Origin: a virus
Reading direction: 5' to 3' (one strand)
Length of the DNA stretch: 25,493 nt
Virus record (IMG/VR): IMGVR_UViG_3300025154_000359
Location: 1-25,493 of that record
Positions within the stretch are counted from its first letter, which is position 1. Each line of letters opens with the position of its first letter. Below, one piece after another: positions 5,403-20,788 of the stretch. The notes under the pieces were generated by a model. That model worked only from the letters and a program-made list of their open reading frames with translations, searched no databases and was not told the origin of the DNA. The position numbers and the translations under genes are program-made.

Positions 5403-5431
5403 ATTATAAGCCATATTCTGGTTTTTTACAA
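5403..5431 (-). promoter_or_regulatory. Sigma70-type promoter for the portal operon
   Basis: Minus-strand TTGTAA (5426-5431) and TATAAT (5403-5408) are separated by 17 bases. The TAA of the -35 element is the stop codon of terL. The leader is short, about 13 bases before the ATG region, and carries the AAAGGGG ribosome site. Confidence 0.65.
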
Positions 5432-6835
5432 TACAATAAATTCATTTTTTTTGTCGTGGTATTCTATGCCGGTAGCTATGCTGTCAATAATGTCATCATG
5501 CTTCCCGGCCGGGAAATTACTAAACTCATGTTTTACATCGTCTGTATAGGATTTTGGAGTGATATAAAAGTTTCCTATTGCTATTATATTTTCGAGTAGG
5601 CTTGCCCGGCTTATTTTGTCCGTTGCTACCGTAATACCTTTGACATACCGCAATCCTTCCAAAGTTTTCTTTATTTCCGCGTAAGCGTCTTTATATCCGC
5701 CGTTACATTCGATACAAATAGGTACGTCAATGTCTTTTTTGGCAGTCTCGATAATAATGGCGTTGCGCTTTGGGGCCTCTTCCCGGATACGCACAATATC
5801 CTTGACGTAGGCTTTCCGCGTAACAATTCCGGTATTTTTATCGGTTAGTTTTATTACCCCGACCAACGCACCTACAGTATAATCCGGATCGTCAGTAGTA
5901 CGCTCTTTCTTGCTGCTTGCCATGTCCCAAGAGCGCACCCAGCTTATCTGCGGCATATCATCGGTTACATTTATTTGGTCTACTTTAAAAATATTGCCGC
6001 CCCGCATTACCGGAGAACACTGCATTAATGACTGCCAGCCGTATTCCCCAAGTGCTGCTTTCTGCCCCTCGTACCAATCTCGGGTAAATCGCTCCAAAAA
6101 AAGATAACCGCTTGGGTACTTTTCATCCTGCGCTGGGAAAGTGATGCTCTCAAACTGCGGGAAATTACTATCTTCTTTTACTTTTTGCTCAATCCTACCG
6201 ATTAAATCATCTGTATGCCATGGTGTAGCCAGTATTATCGTTATGCTTACCGGGGCCCGGCGTGTAAGAAAGACGTTTGTTAACCAGTCCCATTGAGTAT
6301 TGCGTATTGTTTCGCTTTCTGCGGATTCACGATTTTTGCAGTAATCGTCAAGAATTCCCAGATGATATCCACTTCCTGTGATACCACCGCCCACACCTGC
6401 CCAGAGAGTTTTCCCGCCCCTATCTGTATGCCAGCTTTTTATGCTACTGCTTTCTTTTGATAATTTAACGTCAAATAATTCTGCGTATTTTCCCGAGTCA
6501 AATATCCTCCGGGAATCCCGGCTAATATCCCCGGCCTTATCATCGCTATAAGTACAGGCAATAACTTCCTTGTCCGGGAATAAACCCAAAAAATGCGGGG
6601 GGAGAAAACGGCTTATAATGTCTGTCTTACCATGTCGGGGAGGGCATTTAATGATTAAAAATGTGCTTTTGTCGGCCTGGAAGTCTTTTATGGCCTTGTC
6701 TATAGTATTGCAAATTGCGATAGTGTGCTGTCCGCGCTTTAAGCCTTCACTCCCAGCCCAGCAATGTTTCATAAAAAGAATGTGTTTATTGCGCGGGGCA
6801 CCGAGTAATATATCAGCCTTCTGTTCGTCGGTCAT
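5426..6835 (-). CDS. terL: Terminase large subunit
   Basis: This is the 469-residue packaging motor. The ATPase half has Walker A CPPRHGKT at about residues 64-71, Walker B ILDD at about 161-164, and a coupling motif ATPWH at about 203-207. The nuclease half has an aspartate in RSWDMASS (about residue 305) and a late acidic pair in KHDDIIDS (about residue 448). These are the usual metal-binding positions of the RNase H-like domain. It powers DNA translocation into the procapsid and cuts concatemers. The start overlaps the terS-like gene by 23 bases with only a weak ribosome site, so coupled translation is likely. Length and motif spacing are normal. Confidence 0.95.
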   Translation of the reverse strand: MTDEQKADILLGAPRNKHILFMKHCWAGSEGLKRGQHTIAICNTIDKAIKDFQADKSTFLIIKCPPRHGKTDIISRFLPPHFLGLFPDKEVIACTYSDDKAGDISRDSRRIFDSGKYAELFDVKLSKESSSIKSWHTDRGGKTLWAGVGGGITGSGYHLGILDDYCKNRESAESETIRNTQWDWLTNVFLTRRAPVSITIILATPWHTDDLIGRIEQKVKEDSNFPQFESITFPAQDEKYPSGYLFLERFTRDWYEGQKAALGEYGWQSLMQCSPVMRGGNIFKVDQINVTDDMPQISWVRSWDMASSKKERTTDDPDYTVGALVGVIKLTDKNTGIVTRKAYVKDIVRIREEAPKRNAIIIETAKKDIDVPICIECNGGYKDAYAEIKKTLEGLRYVKGITVATDKISRASLLENIIAIGNFYITPKSYTDDVKHEFSNFPAGKHDDIIDSIATGIEYHDKKNEFIVL

Positions 6836-7217
6836 ATATATCGGATATTAATTTCTGCTCTTCTTCAGGCAGTTCGTTAAATATGTCTTTTGTCTTTCCG
6901 TCGACTTTTGCCTCAATTCTTTGTATAGGCATACCGCTGTCATAGGCTAAATACAGCCTTTGCGCCGCATCTCCGCCCTTTAATGCTTTCATGTATATAG
7001 CTCTAACTACTGCCTCGCCGCGTGTTATCTGCCCATGTTCGGTTTCAATAATCTCTGATGAGTGCTTACGAATTAAATCAGCTATTGCGGTTCCGCGTTT
7101 TGGTCTGCCGTTAGGGTTTCCTGATTGACCCGGCTTAAATGTACCTGGCTTGCGTTCCTGCTTTTCTCCTGCTTTACAGGCTTCTATATCTTCAGTATCT
7201 TCTTTATTGTTATCCAT
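6813..7217 (-). CDS. Terminase small subunit-like protein (DUF5681 type)
   Basis: This is a 134-residue protein. Residues about 25-40 read GTFKPGQSGNPNGRPKRGTA, the hallmark of the DUF5681 family, which is commonly found just before phage large terminase genes. A helical region follows, with LKGGDAAQRLYLAYD. The family is thought to act as a small terminase that recognises the packaging site; this is inferred from context. The acidic, low-complexity N-terminal 20 residues look disordered. It overlaps the ABC-GNAT gene at its start and terL at its end. Confidence 0.75.
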   Translation of the reverse strand: MDNNKEDTEDIEACKAGEKQERKPGTFKPGQSGNPNGRPKRGTAIADLIRKHSSEIIETEHGQITRGEAVVRAIYMKALKGGDAAQRLYLAYDSGMPIQRIEAKVDGKTKDIFNELPEEEQKLISDIYDRRTEG

Positions 7218-8280
7218 GTTTATATTCCCATGAAGCAGTTATTCTGTTTTTGCTTACCGTGTTATTTAAATATCTATTGCCTGAGCTTGAGATACCGTTA
7301 ACCCGCCCATGACGTACTAAATGCCAATTTTTACTATTTTTAAATCCTTGCATTAATGCCGGTGTTGATGTTACTATCATAAAACGATAACCACCAGCTA
7401 AATAATAATCACCAATTACATTTAATAGCATGCCGCCTATCCCTATTCCTTGATAATCAGGCAAAACAACCACACGATGAACATGTTTGATATTACTAGC
7501 CGAGGGGTGCGGAAAATGTAAAACAGCACAACATCCGACAAATATATTATTTATACAAGCTGCAAACATCATACTTCCTTTATGCAATTCACTATTCAAA
7601 TAATGATACTTGCTAAAATATCGCCATATTGTTCTATCTGATTTTCTGATTTCAAGTTTAATATCTGGTCGCTGAAGTAACCCCCTTGTATTTTTAAATG
7701 TCATGTCATTTGTATTAAAAACCCAATCAGGTTGAAGCCATTCAATTATATCATAATGGCAAGTTACTGCTATAAACTTTTTATTACTTTTTCTTATTGA
7801 CTTTTGACAAGCCATACTGCCTATTTTTGCTATATTTCTATCAATTACACTGGTAAATTCATCAAATATTATTATATCATTATCAGTTAATATTGCATTT
7901 GCAAGTTCTACTCGCATTTTTTCGCCGTTAGATAATACGCTATAAGGCTTTAACCATGAAGGCGGACTTGAAAACCCAACACTATTAAAAGCCTGAGTTA
8001 TTTCTGATATAGATTTATTTTCAGGCATATCATCAATTACAGAATTATTAGTATATTCTTTATTTATTATTTTATCTGAAAATAACTGCTTTGCAATCGT
8101 TGTTTTACCAGTTCCACTATTGCCTACAATTACCCCTATATTCCAGTCATCTGAATATTCTATATTGCCGGAAAATTTTTCTTTTATTTTTTCTTCGGTT
8201 ATTGTGAACTGATTTTTTATTGCATTAACGCGAAAGGTTTCTTTTGGCATATATTCTTTTACAATGTCAAAACACGGCAT
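7210..8280 (-). CDS. ABC-type ATPase fused to a GNAT acetyltransferase domain
   Basis: This is a 356-residue two-domain protein. Residues 1-200 form a soluble ABC ATPase: Walker A GNSGTGKTT (53-61), signature LSNGE (115-119) in place of LSGGQ, Walker B IIIFDE (135-140) followed by the D-loop region SVIDRN, and a switch histidine in TCHYD (174). Residues from about 205 form a GNAT domain with FSKYHYL and the acetyl-CoA loop VVLPDYQGIGIGG (270-282). There is no membrane segment, so it is not a transporter. The GNAT half could be related to Mom-like DNA-modifying acyltransferases; this is inference. The ATG at 8280 has a GAAGGG site 5 bases upstream, so I prefer it to the longer frame. It sits between ParB-like and terminase genes. 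Confidence 0.75.
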   Translation of the reverse strand: MPCFDIVKEYMPKETFRVNAIKNQFTITEEKIKEKFSGNIEYSDDWNIGVIVGNSGTGKTTIAKQLFSDKIINKEYTNNSVIDDMPENKSISEITQAFNSVGFSSPPSWLKPYSVLSNGEKMRVELANAILTDNDIIIFDEFTSVIDRNIAKIGSMACQKSIRKSNKKFIAVTCHYDIIEWLQPDWVFNTNDMTFKNTRGLLQRPDIKLEIRKSDRTIWRYFSKYHYLNSELHKGSMMFAACINNIFVGCCAVLHFPHPSASNIKHVHRVVVLPDYQGIGIGGMLLNVIGDYYLAGGYRFMIVTSTPALMQGFKNSKNWHLVRHGRVNGISSSGNRYLNNTVSKNRITASWEYKHG

Positions 8281-8783
8281 GAATACCCTTCTGCTGTTAA
8301 TTTTTCGTATAATGTGCACTGTTCTTCTTCACTTTTGCAGTCAATTTCTATTTTCATACTTTGTTTATAATCTAAATCTTTTGATGATATATTTTCTTCA
8401 ATATTTTCCAATCCCGTACTATCAATTATCCTTTGCGTTTCCATGTCAATGTCTTTAAGTTCAGCCGCCAGCAGCTCATCATCCCATTCAGAATACTCCG
8501 CCGTCTTATTACTTGCTATTCTATACGTGCGCTTTTGTATGTTAGTCATACCTGTATGTTGTACAACCGGAACATCTTTATAGCCAAGTTCTTTATAAGC
8601 TTTATAGCGTGTATGCCCAGCAAGTATTATATTTTCCTCGTCTACTTCTATCGGGTCAAGTGCGCCATTCATTCTGATTGACTTTGCTACCACTTCAACA
8701 GCTTTTATGCTTATCTTGCGCGGGTTCCTTTCATACATTACCAGCTTTTCAATAGGATATTTTTCAAAAAATTGTGAAGCCAT
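8259..8783 (-). CDS. ParB-like nuclease-fold protein
   Basis: This is a 174-residue protein with an N-terminal ParB/Srx domain. PIEKLVMYERNPRKI opens the fold, and the key box AGHTRYKAYKELG (about residues 55-67) is the family's G-H-x-R-x-x-A motif that binds nucleotide in ParB relatives. KTAEYSEWDDELLAAELKDI follows, as in phage ParB-like proteins. The C-terminal 50 residues are acidic and without a recognisable domain. It overlaps the ABC-GNAT gene by 22 bases, so the two are probably made together. Its role is not established. Possible roles are a DNA-binding switch for the partner ATPase, or transcription or modification control. Confidence 0.8.
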   Translation of the reverse strand: MASQFFEKYPIEKLVMYERNPRKISIKAVEVVAKSIRMNGALDPIEVDEENIILAGHTRYKAYKELGYKDVPVVQHTGMTNIQKRTYRIASNKTAEYSEWDDELLAAELKDIDMETQRIIDSTGLENIEENISSKDLDYKQSMKIEIDCKSEEEQCTLYEKLTAEGYSCRVLTL

Positions 8784-8796
8784 TATTTGTCCAATA

Positions 8797-9072
8797 TTAT
8801 ATTACCTTGCCAGTCTCTCTTAAAAGCTGATCAACCATTTGAGTTAATCGTCTATTTTCGCCATAAAGTATTTTGTTTTTTTCTGCATACGTTTGTTTGT
8901 CTTCACAATATTTTTTATATGCTGCAATGTATTCTTCTCCCAGCATTTCTTTTAATTTATTTATTTCACGTTCCTGAAAATAATACTTGTTACATACTTC
9001 ATAGTATTTTTTTTTCAACTTTGTTTGTTTTTCAAGTGCTTTTTCTGCTAAATATGTTATTTTTTTATACAT
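8797..9072 (-). CDS. Small coiled-coil protein
   Basis: This 91-residue, lysine/glutamate-rich protein begins MYKKITYLAEKALEKQ and is predicted to be helical nearly throughout, with heptad-like spacing of L, I and Y. No catalytic motif is seen. Its ATG starts one base after the stop of a 41-residue membrane-protein gene (TAGCATG) and has no ribosome site of its own, so it is probably translated by reinitiation. A promoter-like pair upstream (TTGAAA, 17 bases, TATAAT at 9078-9106) would give an almost leaderless message; I regard that as secondary. Function unknown. Confidence 0.6.
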   Translation of the reverse strand: MYKKITYLAEKALEKQTKLKKKYYEVCNKYYFQEREINKLKEMLGEEYIAAYKKYCEDKQTYAEKNKILYGENRRLTQMVDQLLRETGKVI

Positions 9073-9073
9073 G

Positions 9074-9199
9074 CTATATTATATTATATTTCCGCCAAGT
9101 TTTCAAGTTTTTTGTAATTAATTTTATCTTACCGCATAAATATTTTATGCCAATCGTAATAAATACAGTAAGTACAAATGCCAATATTATGTATATCAT
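9074..9199 (-). CDS. Small single-span membrane protein (41 residues)
   Basis: The frame MIYIILAFVLTVFITIGI followed by a basic tail (KYLCGKIKLITKNLKTWRKY) gives one clear hydrophobic span at residues 2-19 with a positively charged cytoplasmic end. A GGAGG ribosome site is 7 bases before the ATG. The ATG overlaps the stop of the CMP-sugar synthetase-like gene (ATGA). The next gene, a coiled-coil protein, starts 2 bases past the stop. Size, charge and coupling argue for a real gene. Spanin-like, holin-like or signalling roles cannot be told apart from the sequence. Confidence 0.6.
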   Translation of the reverse strand: MIYIILAFVLTVFITIGIKYLCGKIKLITKNLKTWRKYNII

Positions 9200-9702
9200 G
9201 CCAATACCTCCGCAACCTCAAAATCTAATTGAGTATCAATGTCCACAGCATAAGCGCATTCAATATATTGCCAATTCCCATAAATCTGGTTAGTAAACCA
9301 AACATAAACTTGCCCGTCCGGTCCCACACAACCAGAGGCCGCGTTCATTTGTATTTGATAGGCATATTTTATAACTTTTTTAATAGTTTCTATGGTTCTT
9401 CCAGGGCTTGTTACCTGTAAAATTACAACCATTTCACAATACGGACGATAACTTATCATTTCTTTTATTACTGCCTCCGTTGTAATATCATCGCCCCTTA
9501 AATGTTTAGGGCGCTCATAAAAGTTAACATCTATGTCTATATCATAATCTGTATTTACAATTATTTGTTCTTTCCGAAATATTTGTTTTGCTTGATTGAT
9601 TGTTCTAAACAATAAAGGATTGCCCTTAAAAATTTTGATATTTTTATCTGGAAATCTTTTACTGCTTTTTCTACATGGGATAACGCATAATAATTTACTC
9701 AT
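9196..9702 (-). CDS. CMP-nonulosonate synthetase-like cytidylyltransferase (short)
   Basis: This is a 168-residue protein. Residues 8-22 read IPCRKSSKRFPDKNI, the nucleotide-binding P-loop of NeuA/KdsB-type enzymes (I-P-A-R-x-x-S-K-x-x-x-x-K-N). LQVTSPGRT (about 97-105) matches the L-Q-P-T-S-P-x-R motif, and DIDTQLDFEVAEVL at the end matches the I-D-x-x-x-D-x-x-x-A-E motif that holds the metal. Family members activate sialic, legionaminic or pseudaminic acid with CTP. It is shorter than the usual 220-235 residues, lacking part of the middle and dimer region. It is coupled by ATGA to the DUF115-like gene. Activity is plausible but unproven. Confidence 0.7.
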   Translation of the reverse strand: MSKLLCVIPCRKSSKRFPDKNIKIFKGNPLLFRTINQAKQIFRKEQIIVNTDYDIDIDVNFYERPKHLRGDDITTEAVIKEMISYRPYCEMVVILQVTSPGRTIETIKKVIKYAYQIQMNAASGCVGPDGQVYVWFTNQIYGNWQYIECAYAVDIDTQLDFEVAEVLA

Positions 9703-10382
9703 ATAACATCCTTTAAATCCATAGTCGGTATAATATCTTTTAATCTGCCTGTTTTGCTACAGTTTATAAAATTGATATCCATGTTTTGCCTTATAATATT
9801 TTTCCACCCTCCATAACTCATTTCAAGGGATGGATCGGAATCATTTTTTTTGTTTTCTTTATCGTGTTTATAGCAATCCATATTACCATTTACCAGTAAG
9901 TCATTTTCATTTTTAACGCAATACTTTTTATCACCATTCCAGCGCAAGTCTACGCCAAGCAGATATATTATTTTAGCTCCCAAGCAATAAGCAAAATTAG
10001 CAGCTACATGTACACAATCCATGCCGCATATTAACTTGCCGTCTGTATCGCTCACAGAAAAATCATACGTCCGATTATCGTATCTACGCCTTACGCAATA
10101 CATATTATCTTTTTCGTCATTATACATAGCATCATTCGCTAATATGATATTTTTAGCAATATGTTTTTTCTGAAAAAAGTTACCCTTTGTAACAAGCTGA
10201 TCTGTTATTAAATAATAATCGAGTTTATCGCCATCATTAAAAATACTTATAGCACTATTGCAGGCTATTACCGTATAAGACTTTAAAAGTTCCGGCAAAT
10301 TTTCATGTTCTCCGAGACTATACCCGGCCCCCAGTACAAATATCTTTTCAGTACCCTGCTGGAAATCAGATGTTTTTTTCAT
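9699..10382 (-). CDS. DUF115/Maf-like Rossmann protein, possible sugar transferase
   Basis: This is a 227-residue protein. The N-terminus has IFVLGAGYSLGE, the I-x-G-x-G-P/Y-S-L loop of DUF115/MptE/Maf and related GT42 sialyltransferase-like folds. CNSAISIF and YYLITDQ follow, and later AKIIYLLGVDLRWNG has the L-x-G-V-D signature. Known relatives (flagellin Maf proteins, Cst-type sialyltransferases) use CMP-activated nine-carbon sugars, and the next gene is a CMP-sugar synthetase-like protein. I therefore infer a transferase for such a sugar. I choose the ATG at 10382, with GGGAGG 9 bases upstream, over a TTG two codons earlier. Confidence 0.6.
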   Translation of the reverse strand: MKKTSDFQQGTEKIFVLGAGYSLGEHENLPELLKSYTVIACNSAISIFNDGDKLDYYLITDQLVTKGNFFQKKHIAKNIILANDAMYNDEKDNMYCVRRRYDNRTYDFSVSDTDGKLICGMDCVHVAANFAYCLGAKIIYLLGVDLRWNGDKKYCVKNENDLLVNGNMDCYKHDKENKKNDSDPSLEMSYGGWKNIIRQNMDINFINCSKTGRLKDIIPTMDLKDVI

Positions 10383-11181
10383 AGTCAAATACCTCCCGGT
10401 ATTCTTTTTCTATTGCGCAAAGCTTTTCGTGTAATTCCTGATTGCAATTTTTGAACCAATAAGGCACTATTTTATTATTATTATTTATTGCATTAAAACT
10501 ATATGGTTCACCCATAAATTTAATAAATCCATTACATTCCGGGGAGCATTTCGTATCGCATTCTATAGACAATATTTTATCTGTAGAATATTTATTCTGT
10601 TTATTAACTGGCATGCCCAATATTCTATGCTCTGTAATACTATGCATAACAAGAGGATAAATATAATATTGTAAAAAATATTGATCACTTCCTTTATGTG
10701 ATAAATCAAATTCGATTTCATTATAGATCACTATTGTAAACGACTCTTTTTTAAATCCTATCATGCCGCCCATTAAAGGAACCGTGTGCGCTAAATTGTC
10801 ATTCATGCTATGAGCTATTGTATCGTTAATTATCCAGTGTTCAACCGCCATTCTTTCGCGGTGAGTCGGCAGGCTGTCAATATCCCGGCAAATGAAACGG
10901 TCAGCAAAACTAACTGGATCAAGTCTCCATAACATCGCCTTGCCGATATTTTCATAATCTTTAACATTTAACAAAATAATATTATTATCTGCAAGATAAT
11001 CAAAGTATTTTTTATAAGCAAGATAACTTTCGCGATCGGCTGTTAAATATATTTTCCAGCCATTATAAACACTATCAAAAACGCGTATATCAAAAGATAA
11101 ATATTTCAAAAAAGTATTAAAACTAAAACATTGACTGTGTTTTTTATTATAGCCAAAAATAGAAAGCGATACTACATTCAT
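10366..11181 (-). CDS. Glycosyltransferase-like protein (GT-A, RDIDS motif)
   Basis: This is a 271-residue protein. It begins VVSLSIFGYN, has an early beta-alpha region, and then carries MLWRLDPVS and FICRDIDSLPTHRERMAVEHW (about residues 83-116). D-I-D-S is a plausible metal/nucleotide-sugar D-x-D motif. PLMGGMIGFKK and DLSHKGSDQYFL follow, like acceptor-side motifs of capsule-type GTs, in which G-x-D-Q-x-F/x-L is common. There is no signal peptide or membrane span. It overlaps both neighbours and is part of the six-gene sugar operon. The donor and acceptor cannot be read from the sequence. Confidence 0.6.
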   Translation of the reverse strand: MNVVSLSIFGYNKKHSQCFSFNTFLKYLSFDIRVFDSVYNGWKIYLTADRESYLAYKKYFDYLADNNIILLNVKDYENIGKAMLWRLDPVSFADRFICRDIDSLPTHRERMAVEHWIINDTIAHSMNDNLAHTVPLMGGMIGFKKESFTIVIYNEIEFDLSHKGSDQYFLQYYIYPLVMHSITEHRILGMPVNKQNKYSTDKILSIECDTKCSPECNGFIKFMGEPYSFNAINNNNKIVPYWFKNCNQELHEKLCAIEKEYREVFDYEKNI

Positions 11182-11738
11182 TTTTTACTCAAATAATTAT
11201 AGTAATACAAAATATCATCAATATGGTGTTCTGTATTCAATGCTTTATTTTTAACCATACACATTGCAAAATCTGTGTCCTCACTGAAACTTTTATGCGG
11301 AAAAGGATATTGAATAGCAATACTGCGCCGAATACAGTTAATATGATTCGGTGGCCTGTAATAAGCTTCATTGTCTTCGCTATAACAATTATATCTTATA
11401 GAATGAATAAACTTTTTTTTCCTTGTATGATTTATTGTTATTATGCCGGTTAGATCACAGCAATCAACATCTTTTAAACATCCTTTGTAAATATTTTTTA
11501 TGTAATTATCCGACACGTTATCATCGTCATCAATAAAACAAATATATTTTCCACTTGCTTTTTCAATAAGTGCATTTCGCTTTTCTCCGATAGATAATTC
11601 TCCATTATCTAAATATTTTATTATTTGTACCTGATCTGATAATTCATTTTCTACTATTTGATTTTTTAATTTTAAAAATAGCCTATCAAACATTTCAATT
11701 CGTTTTTCAAGTGTTGGTATTAATACTGACAGTATCAT
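11178..11738 (-). CDS. GT2-family glycosyltransferase
   Basis: This 186-residue protein has a GT2 catalytic core. It opens SVLIPTLEKR, then has LSIGEKRNALIEKASG followed by FIDDDD (residues 68-73), the metal-binding D-x-D, and later a SEDTDFAM block with the acidic pair expected near the catalytic base. It is short for GT2 but includes all core motifs. The phage-type G-x-K-R-N-x-L sequence before D-x-D is shared with other small viral GT2 enzymes. It is coupled by ATGA to both neighbouring genes. Substrate unknown. Confidence 0.75.
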   Translation of the reverse strand: MILSVLIPTLEKRIEMFDRLFLKLKNQIVENELSDQVQIIKYLDNGELSIGEKRNALIEKASGKYICFIDDDDNVSDNYIKNIYKGCLKDVDCCDLTGIITINHTRKKKFIHSIRYNCYSEDNEAYYRPPNHINCIRRSIAIQYPFPHKSFSEDTDFAMCMVKNKALNTEHHIDDILYYYNYLSKK

Positions 11739-12385
11739 TTAAACCCTGCCAGTTTTCTTTTTTCATACGTTGTTTTATCTTCCTGATAAAAGCTTTCTGT
11801 TATGCGGTATCGCTCATCATACGGCTTACCGGTATTCGCCGGGTGTTCATGCTTTATTATTACATTATCAATATATGTTTGTTTCCCGAGTTTATTTGCT
11901 ACTTCCATAAATTCGTTATCTGCGTAAAGGCTTTTATATGCCGGATGATAAATGTAGCCGAAACGCTCATAATATTTCCTACCCATGCAAACAAGCGTAT
12001 TAAGCCTATTTCCAGCATAGCCGTCATTATACCAAAGTACGCCGTCAAGGTCTGGATAGTATTTCTGCATATCCTCCCGGATGATATTATCCCAGCCATT
12101 TACCTGCGGTATCATATCATCGGAAATAAGTAATAAAATATCCCATTCAATATTTTTAGGCATATTATTTATTGCTTCTATTTTTGACTTATTATCTGAA
12201 ATCATTAATTTATAGTTCTTTGCTGTTTCCAAGATAGATATTGTATTCATTGTTTCATCGTCAATATCAACAACAAAATTAAATATTATTTTTTCACTAT
12301 TTCTTGCCTTATATACATAATCTATAAATGTATTTAAAAATCGTTTACGCCTGCCGCGTGTCGGATATTGACAAAGTATTTTCAT
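11735..12385 (-). CDS. Phage GT-A-type glycosyltransferase-like protein
   Basis: This is a 216-residue protein with the N-terminal motif QYPTRGRRKRFLNTF, then VVDIDDETM (about 38-46), NKSKIEAINN (about 65-74), and LLISDDMIPQVNGWD (about 85-99). S-D-D stands in for D-x-D. YADNEFMEVA near the C-terminus supplies an acidic D-N-E-F motif, and a histidine pair follows in IIKHEHPAN. This P-T-R-G-R/S-D-D/D-N-E-F layout occurs in many phage glycosyltransferase-like proteins. No membrane segment. It overlaps both neighbours through ATGA junctions. Confidence 0.65.
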   Translation of the reverse strand: MKILCQYPTRGRRKRFLNTFIDYVYKARNSEKIIFNFVVDIDDETMNTISILETAKNYKLMISDNKSKIEAINNMPKNIEWDILLLISDDMIPQVNGWDNIIREDMQKYYPDLDGVLWYNDGYAGNRLNTLVCMGRKYYERFGYIYHPAYKSLYADNEFMEVANKLGKQTYIDNVIIKHEHPANTGKPYDERYRITESFYQEDKTTYEKRKLAGFK

Positions 12386-13038
12386 CGTTGAGTACCATTT
12401 AGTATATAAGCTGATTTTCTAATTCCTATATGACAAAATATATCGTCAAGCATAGCAAGATAAAAGCCAGCCGCAGCATATTTTTTTGCATATTCAAGCT
12501 CAAATAATTTTACTTTCTCATCAAACTTCCCGCATGCTTTTCTTATTTTTTTTATAGCCTGAATTGTAGGATTAAGCGTATAACCAGGGTAAGTATGTAT
12601 ATCTCTGCTATTATATTTTAAGCCATTATAATTATGCACCTTTATGCCATTAATCATTTTTGTATTACCCCAAAGTCGATATAAAACAGAAAGTATATTT
12701 TCATTCTGTTTTATTATATCAATACCGGACTGCAAATAAAATGGCTTTTGTGCTTCCCAATCATCTTCCAACATCATTATATAATCCGTATCAACTGCAT
12801 CAAAAAGTTTATTGAGTGCTGCCGGATGCCCTGGAGTTATCTTGCGCAATACATAGGCTTTTATAAAATAACTCGATAAATGATTAATCATCTCCGTAAA
12901 TTGCGTAGGATCCGAATTATCATCTATCATAATTACTTTTTCTATTAAACGACTATCTTGACACTTTGCAAAAAAAGCGTCTACCGTGCGTTTAAAAAGC
13001 TCCGGCCTTCGACAGGTAGTCATGGTTAGGGTTATCAT
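12382..13038 (-). CDS. GT2-like glycosyltransferase
   Basis: This 218-residue protein starts with ITLTMTTCRRPELFKRTVDAF, a typical GT2 opening. VIMIDDNSDP (about 36-44) and YIMMLEDDWE (about 86-95) provide the two acidic nucleotide-sugar and metal sites. TPGHPAALNKLFD between them matches the usual A-L-N-x-x-x helix. I start at 13038, where the ATG overlaps the stop of the VRR-NUC gene (ATGA), rather than 18 codons earlier, where the frame runs inside that gene. It is the first gene of the six-gene sugar operon in transcription order. Substrate unknown. Confidence 0.7.
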   Translation of the reverse strand: MITLTMTTCRRPELFKRTVDAFFAKCQDSRLIEKVIMIDDNSDPTQFTEMINHLSSYFIKAYVLRKITPGHPAALNKLFDAVDTDYIMMLEDDWEAQKPFYLQSGIDIIKQNENILSVLYRLWGNTKMINGIKVHNYNGLKYNSRDIHTYPGYTLNPTIQAIKKIRKACGKFDEKVKLFELEYAKKYAAAGFYLAMLDDIFCHIGIRKSAYILNGTQR

Positions 13039-13334
13039 TTTACAATACCATTCTCTCCCAAAAATAATAAAAAGTCCTTTGTAGAAAAACATACCGCCGT
13101 TTTTACTCCGCGCTTTCCGAGGTTTTCGATAGTTTTTTTTTGTATATCGCTAAGCCTGCCGCCGTCTGCTTTAAGTTCAACTGCGTATGCTTTGCCATTA
13201 AAAAAGAAAAGCAAGTCCGGGAATCCTTTAAAGGTAGTAGAATAAACTGCCGCTTTTGCTGGTAAATGGTAATACTCAATACTGAGTTTTTTTAAAATAT
13301 CTTGACAGGCGGCTTGAATTGTATTTTCTTTCAT
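13035..13334 (-). CDS. VRR-NUC domain nuclease
   Basis: This 99-residue protein is a minimal VRR-NUC fold. KGFPDLLFFFNGKAYAVELK spans residues 36-55, giving the G-x-P-D (40) and E-L-K (53-55) catalytic residues of the PD-(D/E)XK superfamily, followed by G-G-R-L-S-D-x-Q with the family's conserved glutamine (65). Stand-alone phage proteins of this type are structure-selective nucleases, probably acting in replication or Holliday-junction processing. It starts just after a TAATAA stop pair. Its end overlaps the first glycosyltransferase gene. Confidence 0.85.
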   Translation of the reverse strand: MKENTIQAACQDILKKLSIEYYHLPAKAAVYSTTFKGFPDLLFFFNGKAYAVELKADGGRLSDIQKKTIENLGKRGVKTAVCFSTKDFLLFLGENGIVK

Positions 13335-16499: not shown

Positions 16500-16583
16500 T
16501 TATTTTTTTACAATTTGTCCATCACTCAAAGTAGTATAAAATTCACATAAATGTTGGCATATATCGCATTCTTTATTTTCCAT
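16500..16583 (-). CDS. Cassette-borne micro-protein (27 residues)
   Basis: The frame MENKECDICQHLCEFYTTLS ending DGQIVKK has a C-x-x-C-x-x-x-C pattern. It is preceded by a textbook AAAGGAG site 5 bases from the ATG. That ribosome site lies between the attC-like boundary at about 16607 and the ATG, where each cassette's gene start is found. It overlaps the end of the upstream methyltransferase frame by 11 bases. Function unknown. Confidence 0.5.
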   Translation of the reverse strand: MENKECDICQHLCEFYTTLSDGQIVKK

Positions 16584-17325
16584 GTCTGCTCCTTTCAATC
16601 GAAAATGTCGTACAACGTTCGCGATTATACACCGTTTTAATGGCGTTATAATCGCTGTGTATGACGTTACCGCCTGCATCTTGAATTCTTTTAACTGCAA
16701 TGTCATAATATTTTTTTTCCTTCTCTATACCGATAAAATGCCGATTATTTTTTACACAAGCAATTCCCGTTGTTCCACTCCCCATGAATGGATCAATAAT
16801 AATATATTCTTCTGGTAATATTTGTATAATATTATTCATGACCTGCAATGGCATTTGACAAGGATGATCTGTTTTATCCTTACTTACATTTTTCACCTGA
16901 TTGATTTCCCACCAGTCGTATAATCGTGCTGATTTTCCTTCCGCAATACGTTTCATTATTCTTTTATCTTTAGGATTTTTGTATTCTTGTTTACCTTTTC
17001 TCATATCTGGTTTAATTCCGAAAAATGCAATGTCTCGATGTTGTTTTGCTGTATTTGAATTATACACCCAAGATATTACTTTATCGGGAAAATGTCCGAT
17101 ATTAAAAGCGTGTTTGTATATTTCTTCCGGATAATGAATAATAACATGGCGGTAATTATCGAAAACAGATTTTAATAAATCGTAATATTCATCATCTGGT
17201 AAGTTATCGTTATATCCAGTATAGTGATACCCGATATTAAACGGTGGATCACTAACTACCAAGCATTTTTCGTTATCAAATGTTTTCATCGCTTCTAAAC
17301 AATCAGCATTATAAAGTTTTATCAT
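16573..17325 (-). CDS. Orphan DNA methyltransferase (beta class, N6-A/N4-C), cassette gene 4
   Basis: This is a 250-residue amino-methyltransferase. The catalytic DPPF (26-29) comes before the SAM-binding DPFMGSGTTG (178-187), the beta-class order. HPCQ (154-157) is the conserved segment before motif I, and the target-recognition part lies at about 60-150. No restriction nuclease is next to it, so it probably protects phage DNA or changes host methylation. The AAAGGA ribosome site is present. The normal fold should end near IQDAGGN (about 220). The last 30 residues are encoded by the attC-like site and then by the next cassette's leader, because the stop in the site is out of frame here. The 3' end matches the other methyltransferase exactly over 93 bp. 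Confidence 0.85.
   Translation of the reverse strand: MIKLYNADCLEAMKTFDNEKCLVVSDPPFNIGYHYTGYNDNLPDDEYYDLLKSVFDNYRHVIIHYPEEIYKHAFNIGHFPDKVISWVYNSNTAKQHRDIAFFGIKPDMRKGKQEYKNPKDKRIMKRIAEGKSARLYDWWEINQVKNVSKDKTDHPCQMPLQVMNNIIQILPEEYIIIDPFMGSGTTGIACVKNNRHFIGIEKEKKYYDIAVKRIQDAGGNVIHSDYNAIKTVYNRERCTTFSIERSRHGK
16607..16665 (-). other. attC-like site 4 (59 nt)
   Basis: The plus-strand outer arm GTCGTACAACGTTCGCGATTATA and the far arm TATAATCGCTGTGTATGAC pair along the length of the site, apart from an asymmetric spacer (CGTTC against C/A). The short centre is ACACCGTTTTAATGGCGT with an ACGCC/GGTGT-like hairpin. It lies between methyltransferase cassette 4 and the 27-residue gene. Confidence 0.75.
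16647..16739 (-). repeat. 93-bp direct repeat, copy 1 (methyltransferase 3' end plus attC arm)
   Basis: This stretch is identical to 17624-17716. It covers the last codons of the methyltransferase and the R''/L'' arm of the attC-like site. Beyond it, towards the 5' end of the genes, the two copies diverge clearly. Confidence 0.9.
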
Positions 17326-17580: not shown

Positions 17581-17642
17581 TCGTACAACGTTTGCGATTA
17601 TACGATGTCCGCTCCGGATTTAGTATAATCGCTGTGTATGAC
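17581..17642 (-). other. attC-like site 2 (62 nt)
   Basis: The arms TCGTACAACGTTTGCGATTATACG and GTATAATCGCTGTGTATGAC (plus strand) include a perfect 10-bp GCGATTATAC/GTATAATCGC pair. The centre TCCGCTCCGGA is itself palindromic. The stop codon of methyltransferase cassette 2 (TAA at 17598-17600) is in the L-like arm. Confidence 0.8.
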
Positions 17643-18236
17643 GTTACCGCCTGCATCTTGAATTCTTTTAACTGCAATGTCATAATATTTTTTTTCCTTC
17701 TCTATACCGATAAAATTACGATTTAATTTAACACACGCAACGCCGGTAGTACCACTTCCCATAAATGGGTCTAATATTGTATCACAATCAAACATCTTTA
17801 TAATATACTCCATGACATCTAATGTTCTTTGTGTTGGGTGAGCAACTCTTTCTTTTTTCATACCAGCCGTGTTTGCAATAAACCAATTACGCCCATTCGA
17901 TAAATATTTTTTATACTTCATAAAAACTATGTCAAAACAATTTGGCATTTTATGTTTTGTCATTTGACTGAAGTTTTTTATGCTTACAAATGGTTCATAA
18001 TCATCAAATAAATGACTTACAAATGGGATGGCTTTTGATGATTGAAAAATAATAATTGTTTCACATATCAATTCAAAATTACTTTTATATTTATCTAACC
18101 ACTTTGCGTATTCTTGCCAAGTTTTTTCATCATTTTCAAAATATCCCATATTCCACGGAGGGTCAGTTATGACAGCGTCAATTTTATCGGGATTAAGTAA
18201 AAATGGTTTATTATCTCCGTGTATTAGTTTTATCAT
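17598..18236 (-). CDS. Orphan DNA methyltransferase (beta class), cassette gene 2
   Basis: This is a 212-residue amino-methyltransferase. DPPW (25-28) is the catalytic motif, followed by a middle region (about 40-130) that differs from the paralogue. HPTQ (133-136) and the SAM site DPFMGSGTTG (156-165) follow. It is an intact beta-class layout without a cognate nuclease nearby. The AAAGGA site and 5' leader are almost the same as in cassette 4, while the target-recognition part is different. The two enzymes may therefore methylate different sequences. The tail after DAGGN is attC-encoded and ends at a stop within the site. Confidence 0.85.
   Translation of the reverse strand: MIKLIHGDNKPFLLNPDKIDAVITDPPWNMGYFENDEKTWQEYAKWLDKYKSNFELICETIIIFQSSKAIPFVSHLFDDYEPFVSIKNFSQMTKHKMPNCFDIVFMKYKKYLSNGRNWFIANTAGMKKERVAHPTQRTLDVMEYIIKMFDCDTILDPFMGSGTTGVACVKLNRNFIGIEKEKKYYDIAVKRIQDAGGNVIHSDYTKSGADIV
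17624..17716 (-). repeat. 93-bp direct repeat, copy 2
   Basis: Identical to 16647-16739; see that entry. The flanks diverge at 17717, where G in copy 1 becomes T here. Confidence 0.9.
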
Positions 18237-19541: not shown

Positions 19542-19570
19542 ATTATAATCGATTTTTTGCATAAAGTCAA
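19542..19570 (-). promoter_or_regulatory. Sigma70-type promoter for the SSB-like gene
   Basis: Minus-strand TTGACT (19565-19570) and TATAAT (19542-19547) have a 17-base spacer. The TGA inside the -35 element is the rtcB stop codon. The expected start is near 19535, giving a long leader of about 150 bases. Confidence 0.8.
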
Positions 19571-20724
19571 GCTTTTATTACTGCAATAGGAAATAATTTT
19601 TCTTTTATATCTACTAAATCATTTTGATTAATCATTACCTCATCAATATTTTTATATGCACTTGTTGCTTCTTCAAGGTCTTGAGCTTTAGAAATATTAT
19701 GAATAATTCCTTGTTTATTTAAAATTGATATTTCTTCTTCAAGATTTAATTTTTTAATAGCTTCTTTCCTACCCATTTTCCTGCCTGCCCCATGAGAACA
19801 TGACATAAAAGATTCTATATTCCCTTTTCCGGTTATGATATAACTACAAGAACCCTGTGAACCGGGTATTATTCCTATAGTTCCTAATCTTGCCAGCGTT
19901 GCGCCTTTTCTGTGTACAATAACATTTTTATTAAAATGATGTTCATGCGCAGCATAATTATGATGTATATTAATAATGTCATTAAATTTTATTGTATCAA
20001 AAGTCTCAATAAAAATATTTTTTATTTTTTCAATCATATTCAATCTGCTTTGTTTTGCAAAAGACAAAGCAAAATTCATACAGGAAAAATATTCTTTTGC
20101 TTCTATCGTGTCCATTGGTAAAAAAGATAATTCTTTATCCGGAATATCAGAATGCCATTTTGAACATAAAGACAATGCCTTGTCATGATATTCTTTAGCA
20201 ATTTTTAATCCAAAATTACGAGAACCAGAATGAAGCATTATCCATAATTTACTCGCTACGCTTTTTTGTATTTCAATAAAATGATTACCGCCCCCCAGAG
20301 TACCAATTTGTTTTTTTGCACTATCGATTTCTTGCTGAATTATTTTTATATCAGGTACATTGTTAAATCCTTCCCACTCCTGATTTTCATTGTGATGAGA
20401 AAATCCCACTGGTATTTCTTTTTTTATTCTTTCTAATATTTTTATTAATAATTCTTTATTAATATCTTCAATCTCTAAAGATGTTTCTACCGCGCACATT
20501 CCACAACCAATATCAACACCAACTGCATTTGGTATAACAACATTTTCACACGCTATTACTCCGCCTATAGGCATTCCATAGCCTTGATGTGAGTCCGGCA
20601 TAATAGCAACGTGTTTATAAATAAATGGCAAATTAGCAAGATTTTTTGCTTGCAATAAAGCACCATCTTCAATTTTTTCTAACCATAATTTAATAGGTTT
20701 TTTTTCTGTTAATATAATTTGCAT
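19567..20724 (-). CDS. rtcB: RtcB-type RNA ligase
   Basis: This 385-residue ligase has the conserved RtcB sites in order: VDIGCGM with metal D71 and C74, GGGNHF with H148, LHSGSR with H165, NYAAHEH (about 256-262), HRKGAT with H271, and SCSHGAGR with H311. RtcB seals 2',3'-cyclic phosphate or 3'-phosphate RNA to 5'-OH ends using GTP and Mn. In phages it can repair tRNAs cut by host anticodon nucleases. The ATG at 20724 has an AAAGGAG site and a promoter with a hairpin leader. The longer frame from 20772 would run back through that hairpin, so I reject it. Every active-site residue I can place is present. Confidence 0.92.
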   Translation of the reverse strand: MQIILTEKKPIKLWLEKIEDGALLQAKNLANLPFIYKHVAIMPDSHQGYGMPIGGVIACENVVIPNAVGVDIGCGMCAVETSLEIEDINKELLIKILERIKKEIPVGFSHHNENQEWEGFNNVPDIKIIQQEIDSAKKQIGTLGGGNHFIEIQKSVASKLWIMLHSGSRNFGLKIAKEYHDKALSLCSKWHSDIPDKELSFLPMDTIEAKEYFSCMNFALSFAKQSRLNMIEKIKNIFIETFDTIKFNDIINIHHNYAAHEHHFNKNVIVHRKGATLARLGTIGIIPGSQGSCSYIITGKGNIESFMSCSHGAGRKMGRKEAIKKLNLEEEISILNKQGIIHNISKAQDLEEATSAYKNIDEVMINQNDLVDIKEKLFPIAVIKA

Positions 20725-20742
20725 TTTAACTCCTTTAAAGGT

Positions 20743-20788
20743 CGCGCCGGACTGCATAGACCTGCCAGCCATTGCTGTACGCGGCGCG
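20743..20788 (-). promoter_or_regulatory. Hairpin leader of rtcB
   Basis: CGCGCCG (20743-20749) and CGGCGCG (20782-20788) pair perfectly around a 32-base loop between the promoter and the AAAGGAG ribosome site. It is the second of three leaders of this type in the window. Confidence 0.55.

Follow-up and report, generated by a model that had tools for sequence, protein, structure and literature searches.

The window, meaning the whole stretch of DNA that was analysed, is a virus record of 25.5 kb with a G+C content of 35%. The locus consists of a gene for a ParB-fold protein and a gene for an ABC ATPase fused to a GNAT domain (ABC-GNAT), and its features are listed in Table 1. ABC-GNAT has the ParB gene, a TerS-like gene, and the TerL gene as its neighbours in the window, and parB is flanked by ABC-GNAT and a small coiled gene. 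That both ORFs are real genes, as the initial annotation had it, was confirmed by Pfam and PHROG matches. The overlap it described between them also exists, at 22 nt rather than 61 nt. Homologues begin at Met14, and the AGAAGGG element lies 5 nt upstream of its ATG at 8280; the ABC-GNAT start is therefore probably this ATG rather than the GTG at 8319, which gives the shorter overlap. The fusion had further been placed directly before terS; a DUF5681 gene does adjoin it, followed by TerL, and the assignment as TerS is drawn from this position. The arrangement is not due to chance, since hundreds of homologues were found and most of the close ones have the same gene order.

Table 1 Genes and sequence features at the locus, with positions in the window
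Feature	Position	Strand	Remarks
ParB-fold protein, 174 aa	8259..8783	-	ParB_N domain aa 7-75; conserved N20, G56, R59, N92
ParB C-terminal tail, aa 143-174, MKIEIDCKSEEEQCTLYEKLTAEGYSCRVLTL	8262..8357	-	Predicted docking element
Overlap between the end of parB and the start of ABC-GNAT, 22 nt	8259..8280	-	Found at this length in 126 related loci
Shine-Dalgarno-like AGAAGGG for the ATG at 8280, within the parB tail	8286..8292	-	Read from the sequence
ABC ATPase-GNAT fusion	7210..8280	-	356 aa from the likely ATG; 369 aa from the GTG at 8319
ABC ATPase half	7681..8280	-	Walker A G53xSGxGK59, signature L116SNGE, Walker B D140E141, H-loop H175
GNAT half	7222..7668	-	HYL motif (H226 Y227), R269, acetyl-CoA loop P274xxQGxG280, W319
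DUF5681 protein, terminase small subunit position	6813..7217	-	Context
Terminase large subunit (TerL)	5426..6835	-	Context

Elsewhere in the window, a glycan-like gene set lies upstream of parB (9196-13092, minus strand), with a PseF-like cytidylyltransferase, an MptE-like/sialyltransferase-like gene, and two GT2 glycosyltransferases. An RtcB-type RNA ligase gene, possibly for the repair of cleaved tRNA, is found at 19567-20772 (minus strand). Two neighbouring N6_N4 DNA methyltransferase genes at 16573-17325 and 17598-18236 (minus strand) may mark a phage with more than one DNA-modification route.

Pfam domains identified in ABC-GNAT were ABC_tran (E 4.9e-10) and Acetyltransf_1 (E 3.6e-8), and PHROG_11143, a widespread family carrying the PHROG annotation of function unknown, matched near full length (residues 27-366, E 4.6e-96). 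Alignment of 113 homologues showed little or no variation in the Walker A, ABC signature, Walker B, and H-loop motifs. In the GNAT half, Y227 and R269 are invariant and H226 is conserved at 91%; the acetyl-CoA loop that the initial annotation had called intact is 99% conserved at P274, Q277, G278, and G280. Its statement that the ATPase has no transporter partner was likewise borne out, as no transmembrane partner was found adjoining ABC-GNAT, no transmembrane domain was found in the protein, and no membrane partner was found among the recurrent neighbours. The structure model of the whole protein has a pLDDT of 92.4 and a pTM of 0.86, and the GNAT half modelled alone has a pLDDT of 88.6. A fold search with the full model against the PDB returned ABC ATPases, with TmcA at rank 7. 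The GNAT half alone gave a generic result in which the nearest structures were small-molecule and peptide GNATs such as RimI, and a PDB profile search with it gave only weak matches around the acetyl-CoA loop. Similarity to PADLOC defence families was weak and confined to the ATPase half. The ABC and GNAT parts are separate adjoining genes in Lactococcus, Streptococcus, and Oenococcus phages. One viral contig (L274) has two ABC-GNAT genes close by (6001-7098 and 8158-9258).

The window protein matches a gene of the pT24 phage named in PMC7824862, and by this match it is a member of the phage ABC-GNAT family of the Iyer 2013 prediction. The phage family of ABC ATPase-coupled GNATs is predicted to carry out acyl modification of a DNA base (Iyer et al. 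2013, NAR 41:7635, restated in Iyer et al. 2021, PMC7824862). The idea of DNA-base modification by ABC-GNAT is therefore not new, having been predicted in 2013 and restated in 2021. For this family, ParB does not occur in the PMC7824862 text, and the ParB tail, the Com slot, and the acyl-donor genes described below are absent from the passages covered; Iyer et al. 2013 may describe some of these, and no priority is claimed for the ParB, Com, or donor-enzyme links. A literature search on COG2401 found no paper, and the LE3/LE4 paper names the two genes with no mention of modified bases.

The window ParB matched Pfam ParB_N (E 1.6e-7) and a PHROG ParB-like family (E 1.6e-40), and its sequence also resembled the N-terminal part of methyltransferase families (phrog_498, E 1.4e-34; PADLOC MTase_II, E 8.7e-20). 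With ParB_N as the only domain in its 174 aa, no HTH domain was found by Pfam or PHROG, and no ParA match was found among the window proteins scanned; a canonical ParB of the parABS type was rejected on the missing HTH DNA-binding domain and parA neighbour. ParB lies directly upstream of ABC-GNAT in 86 of 86 close viral loci, counting only those with room upstream of ABC-GNAT, and the overlap is exactly 22 nt in 85 of the 86. These loci are related, were picked by similarity, and are not independent (L002 and L055 are one contig), and better evidence for the ParB link comes from genome loci, phage records, and other clades. Bacterial genomes supply a further 26 loci with the 22-nt overlap, many of which are only distantly related, and two bacterial ORFs (L145, 584 aa; L115, 611 aa) hold ParB, ABC, and GNAT in one chain. 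Three other candidate ParB fusions were set aside: L120 has an N-terminal extension via an overlapping frame, with the real ParB in another frame; L126, of similar size and position, was treated likewise; and L300 (748 aa) is preceded by two separate ParB genes.

The tail of the window ParB was searched against 50,697 phage records and gave 19 matches, 17 of them in records with ABC-GNAT. Among the best 60 ParB matches, 12 have alignments reaching residue 172 or further, and every one of these comes from an ABC-GNAT record; the other 48 never extend past residue 160. By these searches, the tail is almost exclusive to ParBs encoded beside ABC-GNAT. The overlap itself may be mainly a translation-coupling device rather than a sign of physical contact. 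Contact between the two proteins is nevertheless favoured, because the tail pattern V.C..E..Q....L..G..CR.L is kept even in pairs without gene overlap. ParB is missing from several ABC-GNAT clades and is therefore not strictly required. Other ParB arrangements were also seen. In Salmonella phage SSU5 (L188, 3566-6710) and Rhizobium phage V1VFA-S (L189), two ParB-like genes are followed by an ABC ATPase with no GNAT match, which suggests a related module with a different catalytic part. In Streptococcus phage Javan254 (L022, 3971-5068), a ParB fused to DUF4417 and annotated as a DNA modification methylase stands before the terminase. A recent survey (PMC12704722) describes a bacterial ParB-fold/acetyltransferase fusion that specifically bound GTP.

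The genomic slot after com or parB is shared with Mom in relatives; in the window itself the partner is parB and not com. In Arthrobacter phages EastWest and Sonny, the genes on either side of the slot are homologous, but the slot itself holds ABC-GNAT in EastWest and a Mom-like protein in Sonny. Along the flanks, the two agree at 64%, then at 54.5% over 132 aa of ParB, then at 80%, with the clamp at 45%; the 54.5% identity of the ParBs is that of their N-domains, and their tails differ with the partner enzyme. ParB overlaps a Mom-like gene in Antuna. Upstream of ABC-GNAT in 14 loci of a clade like Gordonia phage Axumite (12 from a motif scan, with L242 and L246 from Pfam) is a gene for a zinc ribbon like Com of phage Mu, and Zn_ribbon_Com was confirmed in four of them (best E 1.5e-18). 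Com is the translational activator of mom in phage Mu. The end of ABC-GNAT lies 9-30 nt from the contig terminus in seven viral contigs, close to the placement of mom, which stops 115 nt short of the end of Mu. The gene order in EJ-1 is ParB-DNA methyltransferase, ORF38, and terL, and in Lactococcus phage P335 it is ParB, ABC, GNAT, a further ORF, terS, and terL, so that by gene order the ParB-methyltransferase of EJ-1 occupies the slot of ParB, ABC, and GNAT of P335. Mom displacement, the Com slot, and the methyltransferase slot are independent lines of genomic context that place ABC-GNAT among DNA-modifying genes, and such slot sharing could reflect a common counter-defence role and not common chemistry. 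Aeromonas phage PX29 (L191, L346) has both a Mom-like protein and ABC-GNAT, which are therefore not always mutually exclusive. No diverse Mom genes were found in four host genomes searched.

Genes that follow ABC-GNAT in other clades suggest special acyl donors there. Of 80 loci in the clade retrieved with Axumite-like queries, 41 have a gene of a formyltransferase family after ABC-GNAT. By clustering, CoA-transferase III follows in 10 Jace-like loci (Jace counted twice) and aspartate decarboxylase in six, plus Rhodococcus phage Jace by Pfam; the identities of all three enzymes were checked with Pfam on example loci. In L288, ABC-GNAT, the decarboxylase, and the CoA-transferase are encoded by successive genes with 4-nt overlaps. 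The Gly-Ser self-processing site of the decarboxylase is retained. A route from aspartate to beta-alanine to beta-alanyl-CoA is predicted for the Jace-like clade. The window's own clade does not have these accessory enzymes.

Taken together, ParB and ABC-GNAT are best read as a phage DNA-modification module for ATP-driven base acylation with a ParB-fold partner, at a probability of roughly 0.7. The observed basis is the gene structure, motifs, co-conservation, fusions, tail specificity, slot sharing, and accessory genes. From it, we infer DNA as the substrate, an acyl group as the modification, the ATPase role, and ParB docking. The GNAT half would take an acyl group from an acyl-CoA, which in the window phage would be acetyl-CoA or some other acyl-CoA of the host, and attach it to an exocyclic amine on a phage DNA base. 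Probably as an ATP-dependent dimer, the ABC half would open or move the DNA to make bases reachable. ParB would dock on the enzyme by means of its C-terminal tail, serving as an NTP-dependent switch or as a specificity factor. Dedicated enzymes of some relatives, namely aspartate decarboxylase with CoA-transferase III (predicted to supply beta-alanyl-CoA) or a formyltransferase, may alter the donor or product. The presumed purpose is to shield phage DNA from host nucleases and bacterial defences. The Mom-like DNA-modification role raised in the initial annotation is thus backed by context (the com-mom slot, Mom displacement, the ParB-methyltransferase slot, and the acyl-donor enzymes) and by the published prediction, but the GNAT half is not of the Mom family.

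An alternative also raised there, a packaging-linked switch, is disfavoured because many relatives are not near a terminase. More broadly, the GNAT half might acetylate terminase, RNA polymerase, or another protein for host takeover or packaging, with ABC and ParB as nucleotide sensors. TerS and TerL directly adjoin in the window and most close relatives, the RimI-type fold neighbours are as this explanation would have them, and phage GNATs such as phiKMV Rac (cited in PMC7824862) are known to acetylate proteins of the host. It is nonetheless unlikely, as a Mom-like enzyme or a methyltransferase can occupy the same slot and the terminase link is loose: ABC-GNAT is the last gene of Mu-sized contigs, lies in the replication module of Thomasclavelia phage TR-TP2, adjoins tail genes in a Porphyromonas phage, and is unlinked to terminase in T4-like phages, and the terminase neighbours fall into several sequence clusters. 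The fold neighbours themselves, which are ordinary peptide and small-molecule GNATs as would be expected of a peptide or antibiotic acetyltransferase, are uninformative because all GNATs share that fold.

RNA is a decidedly improbable target. The GNAT half would then act on charged tRNA in the manner of a toxin, or on tRNA bases in the manner of TmcA, as a host-takeover or counter-defence factor. The similarity to TmcA and the known GNAT toxins that acetylate aminoacyl-tRNA (cited in PMC7641849) fit such a target, but there is no antitoxin partner, no RNA-binding domain was found in the fusion or beside it, and Com, Mom displacement, and the shared ParB-methyltransferase slot all point to DNA. 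Very improbable, too, is a role in DNA loading or segregation, with phage DNA handled by ParB together with the ABC ATPase and the GNAT half reduced to an accessory. A ParB fold next to an ABC ATPase would suit it, and Dnd systems also pair the ParB-superfamily DndB with an ABC ATPase (PMC10853773); against it, this ParB is without an HTH domain, no adjoining ParA gene was found, ParB can be missing while ABC-GNAT stays, and the acetyl-CoA loop residues are 99% conserved.

The preferred reading of ATP-driven base acylation can be extended, tentatively and with some doubt, to a modular DNA-acylation platform with clade-specific, exchangeable chemistry, in which the ParB tail is a plug-in NTP switch that identifies the partner enzyme. 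The window clade would add a plain acyl group, Jace-like phages a beta-alanyl group by aspartate decarboxylase and CoA-transferase III, and Axumite-like phages a formylated group, and at least two unseen DNA base modifications would be added if this is true. So far, the ABC-GNAT family is mostly annotated as ABC transporter or hypothetical protein, and it probably makes novel protective DNA bases; the gene neighbourhoods hint at the acyl groups to look for in phage DNA. Base acylation, if true, would add an ATP-driven modification of DNA and give a role to a group of orphan ParB-fold proteins.

Among known systems, DndB, DpdB, and the fusion of PMC12704722 also have a ParB fold that binds NTP and partners a modification enzyme. 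Genes for sulfur or deazaguanine modification were not found here. Phage ParB-DNA methyltransferase fusions (PHROG_498) share a homologous ParB N-domain and the position before the terminase and differ in having a methyltransferase catalytic part, no ABC, no GNAT, and another ParB tail. Mom of phage Mu (PF25680, PDB 8bv8) is, like ABC-GNAT, a phage GNAT-fold enzyme with slots after com and after parB, but it is without an ABC half and without the canonical QGxGxG loop that ABC-GNAT keeps. The structural comparison with Mu Mom proposed in the initial annotation placed 8bv8 outside the best 50 fold matches of the GNAT half. The window proteins matched neither phrog_1384 nor, among the Pfam families listed, PF25680, and hhalign gave ABC-GNAT and the Mom profile an insignificant probability of 1.3%; membership of the GNAT half in the Mom family was rejected by profile and fold. 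A His-Tyr pair conserved in both is in register in the sole profile segment, which is weak and insignificant. TmcA, the tRNA(Met) cytidine acetyltransferase (PDB 2zpa), has an NTPase and a GNAT in one chain as ABC-GNAT does, and its fold match covers 399 alignment columns at a low TM-score of 0.29. It acetylates the nucleobase cytidine in RNA. Its NTPase part is not of the ABC type, whereas that of ABC-GNAT is, which sets ABC-GNAT outside the TmcA/Kre33 cytidine acetyltransferases. TmcA is the best mechanistic analogue, as an analogy only, and ABC-GNAT would work like Mom in biological role and like TmcA in architecture.
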